Below are positions 48,042 through 56,473 of a stretch of DNA of 57,066 nucleotides, one piece after another; within the stretch, counting starts at the first letter, position 1, and every line of letters begins with the position of its first letter. The notes beneath the pieces are model-generated. The model was not told the origin of the DNA. It saw only the letters and a program-made list of their open reading frames with translations, and made no database searches. The position numbers and the translations under genes are program-made. This DNA comes from Vasconcelosia minhoensis LEGE 07310. GTDB taxonomy: Bacteria; Cyanobacteriota; Cyanobacteriia; Phormidesmidales; Phormidesmidaceae. The stretch is taken from the NCBI RefSeq assembly GCF_015207255.1, contig NZ_JADEXG010000030.1, positions 1 through 57,066 on the forward strand, in the 5' to 3' direction.

Positions 48042-48174
48042 CTGAGTAGAGCAAACTTGCCCCATCTGCTCTAAAGTCACGGCTAGAGAAAGAATCGGTA
48101 TACTGGACGATTGAAACCTGGCTTCAAACCTTTTAAACTTGATACATTCACGCTATAAGAGCAAAATTCAATTG

Positions 48175-48666
48175 ATGACTATGCCCATAACTATGCTAGA
48201 ACAAGCAATCTCAAACCTTAAGGCGTGGCTGCCTGCCCCGGCTGTCCACGCGCACTGCGATGGTCCCTGTGGTGTGTACGACCCGTCCTCGGCTCGGATT
48301 GCCGCTGAAGCCGTCCTCTCCATGACCAAAAAAATTATGGATTTGGAGCCGCCAGCGTCGGGCGATCAGGCGGCTATGGTGACTTACGAAAATACCATGT
48401 CGCGCTACATCGCGATTAAAGAGGAGCAGGCGCAGATTACTAAGGACGAGGTGCTAATCCTCTGGACGGACTATTTCAAGCCGGTTCACTTGGAAAAGTA
48501 TCCCGACCTGCATGACACCTTCTGGAAGACAGCAAAGCTCTGCTCCTCCTGCAAGGTTGAGGTCAGCACGCAGCACGCCCAGGAGCTGATGGAATCGGTG
48601 CAGAAGATCCACAATATCTTCTGGGCCACCAAAGAACGGGATGTTTCCTGGTATACCGCTAGCTAG
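48175..48666 (+). CDS. sodN: Nickel superoxide dismutase
   Basis: A 163-residue Ni-SOD precursor. The nickel hook HCDGPCGVYDP begins at residue 27, after a 26-residue propeptide (LKAWLPAPAVHA) removed by SodX. The new N-terminal His and the two Cys bind Ni. The remainder matches the four-helix subunit (MVTYENTMSRYIAIKEEQAQ). I chose ATG 48175; Met 48181 and 48193 are alternatives, and TTG 48139 is unlikely. sodX follows 59 bp on. Confidence 0.95.
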   Translation: MTMPITMLEQAISNLKAWLPAPAVHAHCDGPCGVYDPSSARIAAEAVLSMTKKIMDLEPPASGDQAAMVTYENTMSRYIAIKEEQAQITKDEVLILWTDYFKPVHLEKYPDLHDTFWKTAKLCSSCKVEVSTQHAQELMESVQKIHNIFWATKERDVSWYTAS

Positions 48667-48686
48667 ATAATCGCGATCGCACCCCC

Positions 48687-48719
48687 ATCCCGCAGCGCTC
48701 ACCGCCCTGCGGGATTTTT
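48687..48719 (+). terminator. Terminator or attenuator between sodN and sodX
   Basis: ATCCCGCAG, an 11-nt loop and CTGCGGGAT form a 9-bp stem followed by TTTTTG. It lies inside the 59-bp sodN-sodX gap, so it would lower sodX expression relative to sodN. Confidence 0.75.
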
Positions 48720-48725
48720 GCTTGT

Positions 48726-49106
48726 ATGTCCATTCCCCCCGCTAGCTTTACTGAATACGCCCTCTGGCTGCTAGGCCGCCGCCGCCTGTTCACCATATTC
48801 AACGAGTCCATGCAGCCGACCCTGAAGCCAGGGGATAAGGTGTTTGTAGACCCCAGTTGGCAGGCCCGACAGTCGCTGAAGCCGGGGGATATTGCGATCG
48901 CGCATCACCCTTTCCAGCCCAACCTCAAGCTGATTAAGCGAGTCCAGGACGTTTTCTACGACGGCAGCTACTATCTAGTTAGCGATAACGCCTCTGAGCT
49001 AACCGCCCAAGACAGCCGCAAATTTGGCCCAGTTGCCCCCAATCTCATCATTGGCCGCGTAACCAGCTTTTTTTACAGGTCAGAGAACAAACTCAATCTC
49101 TCCTAA
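48726..49106 (+). CDS. sodX: Nickel-type superoxide dismutase maturation protease
   Basis: A 126-residue S26-type peptidase (signal-peptidase fold) that cleaves the Ni-SOD propeptide. Catalytic Ser28 is in FNESMQPTLKPGDKV and Lys71 in KLIKRVQDV. It lacks the usual membrane anchor. The linkage to sodN confirms the role. Confidence 0.94.
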   Translation: MSIPPASFTEYALWLLGRRRLFTIFNESMQPTLKPGDKVFVDPSWQARQSLKPGDIAIAHHPFQPNLKLIKRVQDVFYDGSYYLVSDNASELTAQDSRKFGPVAPNLIIGRVTSFFYRSENKLNLS

Positions 49107-51404: not shown

Positions 51405-52313
51405 CTATGGCGGCGGCTTTTGCCAGGGCATCAGCTGCCAGCCCTGGGGCGGCAGGCGACCATCCATCACAGCCAGGCCGACAAAAATTACCGCCATACC
51501 GACTAGGGCGCTCCAGGGCAGCCGTTCATTCAGCAGCGCAATACCCAGCAGCGAGGCACTGAGGGGAATCAAAAACGCTACCAGGTTGGCATAGGTGGCA
51601 CCAGCTCGGGTCAGCAGGGAAAAGTAAATCAGGTAGGCGCTGGCGGTCGAAAAGACGCCCAGGCTAAGCAACGCCATCCCCGTCGCCGGGCTGAACTGAA
51701 TCACTCCCGGGGCTGACGCTAGAGCAATGATCAGCATCACCAGGGCGCTGACGGTAATGCTGCCCGCTGCGACTACCGTCGGCGACATCGGGCTGAGGCG
51801 ACGGCCATAGATGCCCGCTAGCCCGTAGGACAGGGCCGCCCCTAAAATTGCAAACTGTCCTAGGTCGTCCCAGCCTAGGCCGCTCAGCACGGTTGGTCCG
51901 ACCAGCACGATGACGCCGCCAAAGCCAATCGTCACGCCACTTAGACGGCTGTAGGTGAGTTTCTCATCGGCGGTCAGCCAGTGGGCTAAGACGACCGTAA
52001 ATAGAGGCGTTGTAGCATTCAGGATAGCGGCTAGACTGCCTTCGATATACTGCTGCCCCCAAACAATCAGGTTGAAGGGAACCAGATTATTGACACAGCT
52101 CAGCTGAAACAGCCGCAGCCAGACCCGGGGCGATCGCGGCAGCCGTTCGCCCCGCAGATAGAGAATCAGGTTCAGGGTGAGGGCCGCGATCGCGAGCCGT
52201 CCCGCCACAATCAGCAGCGGCGGCAGGTCGCGCAGGGCAATCTCCACAAAATAAAAGGAGCTACCCCACAGCATGGAAAGCAGCAGCAGCAGCAGCCAGT
52301 CTTTTAAGCCCAT
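51405..52313 (-). CDS. EamA/DMT-family transporter
   Basis: A 302-residue inner-membrane exporter with ten predicted helices in two EamA repeats. The first helix begins at MGLKDWLLLLLLSMLWGSS; GSLAAILNATTPLFTVVLAH is the typical repeat end. I use Met 52313; the longer frame to 52586 contains no membrane segment. It may export an amino acid or metabolite. Confidence 0.9.
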   Translation of the reverse strand: MGLKDWLLLLLLSMLWGSSFYFVEIALRDLPPLLIVAGRLAIAALTLNLILYLRGERLPRSPRVWLRLFQLSCVNNLVPFNLIVWGQQYIEGSLAAILNATTPLFTVVLAHWLTADEKLTYSRLSGVTIGFGGVIVLVGPTVLSGLGWDDLGQFAILGAALSYGLAGIYGRRLSPMSPTVVAAGSITVSALVMLIIALASAPGVIQFSPATGMALLSLGVFSTASAYLIYFSLLTRAGATYANLVAFLIPLSASLLGIALLNERLPWSALVGMAVIFVGLAVMDGRLPPQGWQLMPWQKPPP

Positions 52314-52353
52314 CACCAATTCGGCTGAGTCAAAACCATGACCTGTAGCGGGT

Positions 52354-52818
52354 TCAAAGCCGCTCGGCGAAAAACGACTGGAACCCGGCCAGCCGACCAT
52401 TTTCGCCCCAGCGGGCCGCGAAGCCAGACAGCGTATCAATCTGATGCGCCTCGTCGTCAGGCAAAGCGGGCTCGAACCCGAGCAGGTCTTGCTGCGGCGG
52501 TAGGGCGGTCCAGTCCGCAATATCTGGCCGCCACCAGAGCACCCGGCAGAGCCGATGAAACCCTTGCTTTCCCTCATAGGGCTCACAGTCTAGGATTTCG
52601 ACCAGATGAGTCAGCTTGCCGTTTTGCACCAGGGCGATCTGGTCTGCGGCTTCGATCATTTCAGCCTTGTTGGTGGCAAAGTCCAAGGGAAAAATCGTCA
52701 CATAGTTGTGATCAATCGTGTGTGGCGAATCCTGAAAGCGATCGCGGGTGTAGGCCCAGCCATTGGGGTCGCGGACGGCCTTGATCCACTTCAGCTTTGA
52801 TAAAACCAGATGGTTCAT
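52354..52818 (-). CDS. Hypothetical protein
   Basis: A 154-residue protein from Met 52818 (MNHLVLSKLKWIKAVRD). The strand-like TIDHNYVTIFPLDFATNKAE and QIALVQNGKLTHLVEILDCE hint at a PUA/EVE-like fold, but I could not confirm this. No signal or membrane segment. It lies 40 bp upstream of the EamA gene on the same strand and may be co-transcribed. Confidence 0.55.
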   Translation of the reverse strand: MNHLVLSKLKWIKAVRDPNGWAYTRDRFQDSPHTIDHNYVTIFPLDFATNKAEMIEAADQIALVQNGKLTHLVEILDCEPYEGKQGFHRLCRVLWWRPDIADWTALPPQQDLLGFEPALPDDEAHQIDTLSGFAARWGENGRLAGFQSFFAERL

Positions 52819-53262: not shown

Positions 53263-53446
53263 GGCTAACGGCTGCCTACAGGGTCCCGGCGCGATCTCCT
53301 TTACGAGTTTTTGACACTTATTGTTTATACTGAGTCTGAATTTTGCAGTCAGGGGGAATCCAGGATGTTCAGCCTTTTGCACCATTACAGCTAGTGAGTC
53401 AGGGGCGATAGGTTTAGAAAACTATCGGGCCGTTGTTCCCATAAAT

Positions 53447-54763
53447 ATGCCAAAAATCAATGATTCAGTGACCGATTGTTCTCATTACCGTCTGCGATGT
53501 GTTCACTGTGGAGCAGACTATCCCGCTAATCCGTTTCGCCTGCAATGTGACCAGCCTCACGCGCCGTCTCTGCTCCGTACGGTTTATCGCACCCAGCAGC
53601 TGACGATCAGGCCCCATCTCCCCGGTATTTTTCGATTCCTCGACTGGCTGCCCGCCGACCATTTTTTAGCGGGAGGTGGCAAACCCATCACCTACCAAAG
53701 CACCCACCTAGCCCGGCGGCTGGGCCTAGAACAGCTCTACATCAGCTTCAATGGCTACTGGCCAGAGCGAGCAGCGAACCTGCTCACGGGCTCCTTCAAG
53801 GAATTAGAGGCCCCCTCAGTGCTGGCCCGGGTGCCCGAGCATCATCGTCGCACTCTGGTGGTGGCTTCGGCCGGGAACACGGGCCGGGCCTTTGCCCACA
53901 TTTGCTCTAGCCTAGCGCGATCGCTCTATCTGGTGATTCCTGAAAAAAATCTGGACGCGATCTGGTCTACGTCTAAGTTTTATCCCGGCGTGCGGCTGAT
54001 CGTCGTCAGTGACGGGGGCGACTATGCGGACGCGATCGCGCTGGCCCAGCAGATCGGTCAGCTAGACGGATTCTTTCCCGAAGGCGGAGCGGCTAATGTG
54101 GCCCGGCGGGACGGCATGGGGCTGACTGTACTGGACGCGGTGACGACCTTAGGCCAGATTCCGGCGCACTACTTCCAGGCGGTAGGCTCGGGGACGGGCG
54201 GCATTTCGGCCTGGGAAGCCAATCAGCGCCTGCTCCAGGATGGCCGCTTTGGCAACCAGACTATGCAGCTACACCTGGCCCAAAATAGTCCCTTTAGCCC
54301 CATGGTCGATGCCTGGAAGCGGGGCAGCCGCACCCTTGTTGCTCGCCGTGAGGGGGTGACCAAGGCGCAGATTAATCAGGTTTCGGCTAAGGTGCTGACC
54401 AATCGCAGCCCGGCCTATGCGATCGCTGGTGGAGTCTACGATGCGCTAACCCAGACCGGGGGGCAAATGTACGCGGTCACTAACTCAGCCGCCGTTCGCG
54501 CCCGCCGCCTGTTTAAGGAACTCGAAGGCATCGATATTAGTCCCTCGGCTGGCATTGCGACAGCGGCCTTACTCCAGGCGGCTGAGGCCAATGCGCTGAA
54601 AAAAACAGACTGCATTTTGTTGAACATCACCAGCGGCGGCACCGAGCGCATCCGTCAGGACTATGCGCTGCACTATCTCGCGCCCCGGATGGCCTTTTCA
54701 CCCCAGGAGATTCGCAGCGGTTCGGCTCTGCGGCATATCGAGCAGCAGCTGCTTTCCGTTTGA
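53447..54763 (+). CDS. Cysteate synthase-like PLP enzyme (threonine-synthase family)
   Basis: A 438-residue PLP enzyme. The N-terminus has C18-x2-C21 (LRCVHCGADYP), a possible small zinc site. The cofactor Lys is in TGSFKELEAPSVLA (K118), followed by VVASAGNTGRAFAHICSSLA, PEGGAANVARRDGMGLTVLD and SGTGGISAW. This matches the cysteate synthase branch, known from methanogens, which makes L-cysteate from O-phosphoserine and sulfite; a threonine synthase role is less likely because the flanking motifs differ. Start is ATG 53447; the frame opens at 53321. GH3 follows after 30 bp, so the two form one transcription unit. Confidence 0.8.
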   Translation: MPKINDSVTDCSHYRLRCVHCGADYPANPFRLQCDQPHAPSLLRTVYRTQQLTIRPHLPGIFRFLDWLPADHFLAGGGKPITYQSTHLARRLGLEQLYISFNGYWPERAANLLTGSFKELEAPSVLARVPEHHRRTLVVASAGNTGRAFAHICSSLARSLYLVIPEKNLDAIWSTSKFYPGVRLIVVSDGGDYADAIALAQQIGQLDGFFPEGGAANVARRDGMGLTVLDAVTTLGQIPAHYFQAVGSGTGGISAWEANQRLLQDGRFGNQTMQLHLAQNSPFSPMVDAWKRGSRTLVARREGVTKAQINQVSAKVLTNRSPAYAIAGGVYDALTQTGGQMYAVTNSAAVRARRLFKELEGIDISPSAGIATAALLQAAEANALKKTDCILLNITSGGTERIRQDYALHYLAPRMAFSPQEIRSGSALRHIEQQLLSV

Positions 54764-54793
54764 GTCCCCATTGCGTAGAGAGAATTGAGAGAC

Positions 54794-56473
54794 ATGGCAA
54801 ATCCCCTGATGAATCTGGCTTTCCAGGCATTCGCCCAGCGCTCAACAGCTAGACTCATTCAACATGTTCAGCAGATCGAGCAGGCGCAGGAGACGTTTTT
54901 GCGATCGCTGCTCCAGTCTCACCAGGATACCGAATTTGGACGCGAGCATAAGCTCTCTGAAATCAAGACCATCGACCAGTTTCGCTTGCGCCTGCCGATT
55001 CGGCCCTACAGTGCCTTTGCGCCCTACATTCAGCGCATGGCCCATGGCGAAGCGAACGTGCTGGTGCCCGATCCGCTAATTTACTTCAACATCAGCAGCG
55101 GCTCGACCGGACAAAAGAAGTTTATTCCAGTGACGGCGCGATCGCGGCGGTTTCTCTCCCGCTCCAGCCGCACTGCGATTGGGTTTGCAATTAAGGCAGC
55201 ACTGCGAGATCAGCGGCCCCTCGGCAAGATTCTCTTTCCCATGTCGGTCAACCCCCACGGACAGACGGCCTCCGGCATCAGCTATGCGCCGGTCAGTACG
55301 AGCGATATGTACCTGATGGATGGACTCTCTCGAAATCTGCTGTTTGTCCATCCGCCTGAAGCCTATCAGATTGCCGATACGACCGCTCGCTATTATATCT
55401 GTCTCATGTTTGCCCTAAGAGATCCAAACTTGCGGGTGATTCTAGCGACGTTTCCAATTCTAGCCCTGCAGATGTGTCGGCAGCTAGAAGAGCACGCCGA
55501 CTCTTTGATCCAGGATATCGAAGTGGGGCAAATTGCCGACTGGATCAAGCTAGAACCGCAGCTGCGAGAGCGCCTGGAGCGTAAATGGTCCGCTGCGCCG
55601 AGACGGGCCGCCCAGCTCCGGCAAATCTATCAGTCCTACGGACGGCTGACGCCCCAAACAGCATGGTCCGGTTTATCGCTAATGGTAACAGCGCGAGCAG
55701 GCACTTCTAATTTTTACTTCGAGCAGTTCCCAGAATACTTTGGCGACCTGCCGATCTTTGGCGGCATCTATGCCTGTTCTGAAGGAAATCTGGGCGTTCA
55801 CTATGACTTCAATACTGACAATGCCATTCCCGCGATTGAAAGTACTCTGATTGAATTTGTTCCTGAAGACCAGTGGGAGACTGACTGTCCTAAAACGCTG
55901 ATGGCCTGGGAGCTGGAGGTAGGCCGCCGCTATCGAATTGTGTTGACCAACTACAGCGGCTTCTATCGCTATGACCTGGGCGACGTGGTTGAGATTGAGG
56001 GATTCTTTGAACAGGCTCCCCTGATGCGGTTTCTGCATCGTCGGGGCGGCGTCATCTCAGCCTCTACTGAAAAAACAACAGAAGCCCACGTACTGGCTAC
56101 GATGCAGCAGCTGCAAAAGATTTTTCAGGTCACGCTCGGAAATTTTTGTATCACCTTACCTAAAAAGGATCTTCCCGCCTACTACTTGGTCAACATTGAA
56201 CTGTCCCCCGCCGACCGACTGGCAGACCCTGAGAAATTTTTGCAGCAGTTTGAAGTCATTATGCAAAGTGTGCAGAAATTCTATGCCATTAAGCGACGGG
56301 ACCAAATCGCCCCCCCGCGCTTGCGAATCCTGCCTTCGGGAAGCTTTGAAATTCTCAGACAGCGGATGATCCAGCGGGGCATCTCGGCGGCGCAGATCAA
56401 ATTTCCCCACGTCACTGAAGATCGGCAGTGGTTAGATGGACTTAGCATTGAGCAGGAAGTGCGGTTAGAATAG
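54794..56473 (+). CDS. GH3-family acyl-acid amido synthetase
   Basis: A 559-residue adenylating enzyme of the GH3 family, known from plants where it joins amino acids to auxin or jasmonate via an acyl-AMP. The ATP loop is NISSGSTGQKKFIPVT (about 99-114), then ACSEGNLGV, and the C-terminal hinge region NYSGFYRYDLGDVVEIEG. Bacterial GH3 proteins are of unknown substrate. Next to cysteate synthase it could conjugate cysteate to an acyl acid; this is inference. Start is ATG 54794, TTG 54785 adds three residues. Confidence 0.88.
   Translation: MANPLMNLAFQAFAQRSTARLIQHVQQIEQAQETFLRSLLQSHQDTEFGREHKLSEIKTIDQFRLRLPIRPYSAFAPYIQRMAHGEANVLVPDPLIYFNISSGSTGQKKFIPVTARSRRFLSRSSRTAIGFAIKAALRDQRPLGKILFPMSVNPHGQTASGISYAPVSTSDMYLMDGLSRNLLFVHPPEAYQIADTTARYYICLMFALRDPNLRVILATFPILALQMCRQLEEHADSLIQDIEVGQIADWIKLEPQLRERLERKWSAAPRRAAQLRQIYQSYGRLTPQTAWSGLSLMVTARAGTSNFYFEQFPEYFGDLPIFGGIYACSEGNLGVHYDFNTDNAIPAIESTLIEFVPEDQWETDCPKTLMAWELEVGRRYRIVLTNYSGFYRYDLGDVVEIEGFFEQAPLMRFLHRRGGVISASTEKTTEAHVLATMQQLQKIFQVTLGNFCITLPKKDLPAYYLVNIELSPADRLADPEKFLQQFEVIMQSVQKFYAIKRRDQIAPPRLRILPSGSFEILRQRMIQRGISAAQIKFPHVTEDRQWLDGLSIEQEVRLE

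Follow-up and report, generated by a model that had tools for sequence, protein, structure and literature searches.

Organization of the locus

The window, that is, the whole stretch of 57,066 nucleotides analysed from Vasconcelosia minhoensis LEGE 07310, carries near its end two complete genes on the forward strand: a predicted cysteate synthase (CS) gene at 53447..54763, which starts with ATG and encodes 438 aa, and a GH3 acyl acid amido synthetase gene at 54794..56473, which also starts with ATG and encodes 559 aa. The sequence between them, read directly, is an intergenic stretch of 30 bp (54764..54793, forward strand) with a GAGAG ribosome-binding-like sequence, TTGAGAG being located immediately before the GH3 ATG at 54794, and the gap is 21 bp if the alternative TTG start of the GH3 gene at 54785 is used. 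The longest frame of the CS gene covers 53321-54763 with a TTG start, and the CS profile begins only at its residue 56. A preliminary description of this DNA had reported a CS-like PLP gene followed, after 30 bp, by a complete GH3 gene, and both the coordinates and the spacing were right. A scan for promoters and terminators gave matches that were no more numerous than in shuffled sequences. No lipid gene was found beside the pair within the window, with the contig stopping 593 bp past the pair. An EamA transporter gene (51405-52586, reverse strand) was considered as a third conserved member and rejected, for it barely aligns (23%, E 0.007) with the EamA proteins near CS in two other genomes (G471 and G497). 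Further upstream, at 48139-49106, a nickel superoxide dismutase gene is followed by a gene for a small signal-peptidase-like protein, which is the usual sodN-sodX type of arrangement.

The first gene is a cysteate synthase

The product of the first gene is a cysteate synthase and not a threonine synthase, its activity being predicted from comparisons of profile score, structure, conserved columns and tree. In the NCBIfam profile search it scored 508.5 bits against TIGR03844, for which the curated equivalog cut-off is 324.9, whilst the top threonine synthase equivalog model gave only 72.5 bits with a cut-off of 303; the window genome also encodes a separate ThrC-like gene. The nearest solved sequence was 9k3c (433 bits), named in the structure library as CapA2 of Alistipes finegoldii, and the AF2 model of the protein (pLDDT 91.9) found its best structural fit in the same CapA2, with 48% identity, TM of 0.92/0.94 and rmsd of 2.0, threonine synthases ranking after it with 14-21% identity. 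The window CS agrees with the other CS proteins in each of the 73 columns whose conservation among them is 95% or more, and many of these columns differ in ThrC. In a tree of 40 sequences, a long and fully supported branch (100/99) parted the CS proteins from the two cyanobacterial ThrC-type proteins included, one of which comes from the window genome. The motif GSFKE at 53789..53803 (forward strand) contains a lysine that putatively binds PLP (K118 when the protein is counted from the ATG), which is invariant in 20 aligned CS and is also present in ThrC; the role of K118 is presumably that known for the family. Threonine synthase identity is thus rejected by profile score, tree and conserved columns, and the placement among true threonine synthases, which the preliminary description had named as one outcome that would overturn its reading, did not occur, since the phylogeny groups the protein with true cysteate synthases. 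The cysteate synthase of Methanosarcinales, which serves coenzyme M synthesis, belongs to the same family and clade as the window CS, but its partner gene differs, and a coenzyme M pathway is not expected in cyanobacteria.

The second gene encodes a complete GH3 protein

The second gene encodes a complete member of the GH3 acyl acid amido synthetase family, for which amide formation is predicted, with the N-terminal, central and C-terminal Pfam domains (PF03321, PF23571 and PF23572) all scoring over cut-off. Three ATP/AMP motifs align with those of plant GH3 proteins, namely SSGSTGQKK at 55094..55120, YACSEG at 55769..55786 and YRYDLGD at 55964..55984, all on the forward strand. Among 22 cyanobacterial GH3s, the key positions of the first motif, E330 of the second, and R392, Y393, D394, G396 and D397 of the third are invariant. 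Plant GH3 structures were matched both by sequence and by the three-domain fold (TM ~0.85), and GH3.6, JAR1 and PBS3 share the three ATP motifs, though identity is ~20-24% and the acyl and amino acid substrates of the window GH3 are probably different. The search for acceptor-specificity residues returned Arg144 (numbered on the longer frame) as the top column, which was not significant, in an independent-pairs test that cannot reach significance.

A parallel among bacteria is OlsH (Sinac_1599), a characterised planctomycete GH3-like lyso-ornithine lipid synthetase that uses free fatty acids and ornithine with ATP and Mg2+, and whose authors suggest other amino acids for homologues elsewhere (PMC12493201). 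Both are bacterial GH3 proteins encoded in short operons, and the window GH3, like OlsH, would use ATP to join a free fatty acid to an amino acid and so yield an N-acyl amino acid. The two are related in sequence, but the OlsH equivalog NF052613 gave the window GH3 95.8 bits, far below the 620 bits required, so it is similar in kind rather than a member; in addition, its partner is CS and not OlsI or OlsG, and the amino acid expected is cysteate.

Distribution of CS and its linkage to GH3

CS is rare in cyanobacteria, having been detected above cut-off in four of the 386 genomes sampled from the phylum and in 13 of the 390 sampled from the class, two samples that overlap, and in only one of 65 genomes of the window's own family, which is the window genome itself. 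GH3 was found in 50 of the 386 phylum-sample genomes (E <= 1e-20). The CS genomes comprise G000 (the window genome), G159, G374, G471, G490, G497, G539, G564, G569, G583, G588, G591, G610 and G632, together with seven of the 22 genomes of one further family, f16 (G360, G455, G456 and G462-G465). Among plasmid records, CS relatives of 35-40% identity were obtained only from two large Streptomyces plasmids (L100 8001-9197 and L101 8001-9173), and no GH3 was found near the CS relative on either.

Outside f16, all 13 genomes with readable flanks have a GH3 gene no more than three genes away from CS, and these genomes belong to six families (f1, f5, f12, f15, f19 and f43). GH3 is directly downstream of CS on the same strand in nine of the 13, with gaps of 21-213 bp by longest frames; in G564 the two genes are divergent, and in G539, G159 and G374 they are separated by one or two genes, with GH3 coming first in G374. 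The GH3 of G490 is cut short by its contig. In G632, CS, DedA and an amidase gene run into a contig end, and a second contig starts inside an amidase gene, passes an opposite-strand gene and continues with GH3 and a decarboxylase, so that the two contigs appear to hold a single CS-GH3-decarboxylase locus. On the assumption of 4500 genes and two GH3s per genome, chance would put a GH3 no further than three genes from CS at a rough rate of 0.003 per genome, and chance adjacency is rejected by the 13/13 linkage. The occurrence of the pair in six families with changing gene order suggests a shared function of CS and GH3 rather than an inherited order. Conservation of the adjacency in relatives, the lack of which would have told against the preliminary description, was found when the search that it proposed was run. 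The seven CS genomes of f16 contain no linked GH3.

The GH3 adjoining CS in G610 (L124 4988-6668) is split into several frames, through either decay or sequencing error. In G569, the linked GH3 is immediately followed by a frame of 151 aa (L121 5503-5958) that combines N-terminal-like and C-terminal-like GH3 sequence, apparently a second copy of GH3 that has collapsed.

Phylogeny of CS and GH3

The CS-linked GH3s make up eight of the ten rows of one GH3 clade (98/99) and occur in three further places of the tree, occupied by G374, by G159, and by G539 with G632. CS linkage as a label on this tree needs at least five changes, and well-supported branches force five. The cyanobacterial CS proteins fall into two groups, the first with ten GH3-linked genomes and f16, and the second with G159, G374, G539 and G632. 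The f16 sequences sit within the first group, where branching order is not well supported, and from this position the f16 arrangement without GH3 looks like a later departure. One genome of the window's family, G215, has the sister GH3 and no CS, which is probably a loss.

Lipid-related genes around GH3

The surroundings of 39 cyanobacterial GH3 loci were surveyed, with one locus (that of Filamentous cyanobacterium CCP2) counted twice. A small FA_hydroxylase recurred at 11 loci, whilst Mpo1-like, amidohydrolase and MFS transporter genes each recurred at eight. An acyl hydroxylase resembling OlsC was present at five, scoring 254 bits where the OlsC cut-off is 450. At the CS-GH3 loci themselves, FA_hydroxylase is found before CS in G591 and beside CS in G159 and G374, the OlsC-like gene adjoins GH3 in G374, DedA/VTT genes are present in G539, G632 and G583, and MFS genes lie next to GH3 in G471 and G497. 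These surroundings are lipid-like and speak for a lipid as the product, rather than for a free signal or a storage compound. The preliminary description had offered a signal, a surfactant-like lipid or a storage compound, and genomic context retains the lipid and leaves the other two less favoured.

Several further arrangements were observed. A block of FA_hydroxylase, Mpo1-like and amidohydrolase genes stands beside GH3 in eight cyanobacterial loci (L035 9831-12267 and seven others), which suggests a hydroxy-fatty-acid metabolism tied to GH3. The window genome has a second GH3 (L037 374-8524) beside a small FA_hydroxylase, two ABC-transporter-like genes, an SDR, an acetyltransferase-like protein and an alpha-oxoamine synthase (AOS), and AOS, Rieske and acetyltransferase-like genes recur near GH3 in other genomes. 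In G054 (L091 6093-9006), a GH3 and a PLP gene of the threonine synthase type stand tail-to-tail; the PLP gene exceeds the thrC cut-off and does not belong to CS.

Proposed pathway and alternative readings

Cysteate synthase makes cysteate from phosphoserine and sulfite, and GH3 enzymes form an acyl-AMP first and an amide second. On this basis, the window CS would swap the phosphate of O-phospho-L-serine for sulfite by PLP chemistry to give L-cysteate, and the GH3 would convert a carboxylic acid to its acyl-AMP and then join the acyl group to cysteate at the amino group; the acid is most likely a free fatty acid or a hydroxy-fatty acid. The resulting N-acyl-L-cysteate would be an anionic amphiphile, either placed in the membrane or exported. 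We infer which substrates the GH3 takes, that the acyl part is a lipid, and what the product is and does, and give a probability of roughly 0.6 that CS and GH3 constitute such a small pathway to a sulfonated amino lipid. In its favour are the identity of CS, the complete GH3 with three ATP motifs, the recurrent linkage of CS to GH3s that occupy four positions in the GH3 tree, the lipid genes near cyanobacterial GH3s, the use of free fatty acids by OlsH, and the lack of a match to the CS-associated decarboxylase in the window genome. The sister GH3 without CS in G215, the f16 CS without linked GH3 and the want of a lipid gene next to the pair in the window speak against an N-acyl-cysteate route. 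The N-acyl-cysteate or similar conjugate proposed in the preliminary description is accordingly kept as the reading best supported by identity, tree and linkage, with the product itself as a prediction.

A different order of events, in which decarboxylation of cysteate to taurine comes first and GH3 then makes an N-acyl-taurine, is unlikely as the general reading. It draws on the gene run of CS, DedA, GH3 and PLP decarboxylase in G539, on what is apparently the same set across the contig break in G632, and on a related PLP decarboxylase in six of the seven f16 CS neighbourhoods. However, the CS-associated decarboxylase had no match at E 1e-20 in the window genome and nine other CS-GH3 genomes, a search outside which unrelated decarboxylases fall, and for lack of such a match taurine is not expected as an intermediate in the window's organism; taurine formation there by the CS-associated decarboxylase was rejected. 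For G539 and G632, by comparison, N-acyl-taurine is the likelier product.

The loci concerned have features of their own. G539 and probably G632 (L128 4231-9206; L127 7859-10281; L133 1-4995) join CS, DedA, GH3 and the PLP decarboxylase, with an amidase and a JmjC-like gene also in between in G632. The f16 genomes are 8-10 Mb in size, and their CS is mostly accompanied by a TauD-methyltransferase fusion, a small methyltransferase and a PLP decarboxylase (L034 310-9868; L094-L099), with several loci holding two flavodiiron-type proteins as well; the f16 CS locus is possibly a taurine or methylated-taurine route.

Rather improbable, too, is the joining of cysteate by GH3 to a small acid, for instance indole-3-acetate or a benzoate, which would yield a hormone-like or specialised conjugate and no lipid. 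Every solved GH3 matched is a plant hormone or benzoate enzyme, and IAA conjugates are reported for cyanobacteria (PMC6827244, which cites Zizkova 2017). Yet the identity to those plant enzymes is low, the neighbourhoods of GH3 are lipid-like, and the bacterial relative OlsH uses fatty acids.

In the capnine route, SulA/CFAT condenses cysteate with acyl-ACP through a C-C bond, Lys281 being diagnostic of SulA (PMC9304779). A corresponding route in the window's organism, with cysteate feeding an AOS for a capnine-type sulfonolipid and GH3 supplying or adding the N-acyl chain, is doubtful and has a small probability at best. CapA2, which comes from a capnine producer, is the closest solved structure to CS, of the same enzyme family, so that a cysteate synthase as the first enzyme of a capnine pathway is present and cysteate may likewise be a precursor of sulfonated lipid; moreover, the window genome carries an AOS with GNAT and SDR genes ~2.5 kb from its second GH3. 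But AOS is general, for 21 of 24 genomes have it whether or not they carry CS and three CS genomes lack it, and it was never located beside CS in the loci read. The AOS of the window genome that best matched the query has Ile at the position of the diagnostic Lys281, and we infer that it belongs to the cyanobacterial BioF-like group, a Nostoc member of which failed to form the SPT product (PMC8895605). The partner of the window CS is instead an amide-forming GH3, and a SulA-type capnine route is not supported, as no SulA-type AOS with Lys281 was found linked to CS.

It is very improbable that CS and GH3 are mere neighbours, with CS making a solute (free cysteate or taurine) and GH3 using another amino acid, as the f16 CS without linked GH3 and the G215 GH3 without CS might suggest, against which stands linkage in all 13 readable genomes, in six families, with changed orders and with GH3s that are spread over several parts of the tree.

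Significance of the CS-GH3 pair

No report of the CS-GH3 pair was found in open-access papers searched at title and abstract level, among them papers sought on cyanobacterial N-acyl-taurine, sulfonolipids and cysteic acid, and the term 'cysteate synthase' was met together with cyanobacteria only in the reference list of one paper. Both enzyme families are known, and no description of their combination, or of its probable product, was found in the open-access literature searched. We give about even odds to the broader proposal that N-acyl-L-cysteates, possibly hydroxylated, form a new class of sulfonated amino lipids in scattered cyanobacteria, made by a capnine-independent CS-GH3 route, with N-acyl-taurine and GH3-free variants elsewhere.

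If the N-acyl-cysteate reading is true, these compounds would be a second kind of cyanobacterial sulfonated lipid beside sulfoquinovosyl diacylglycerol, and the sole characterised bacterial GH3 lipid pathway would be extended to a new head group. Cysteate synthase, in place of serving coenzyme M or capnine synthesis, would then feed a ligase that forms amides, and bacterial GH3 proteins lacking an assigned use would gain a concrete substrate hypothesis.
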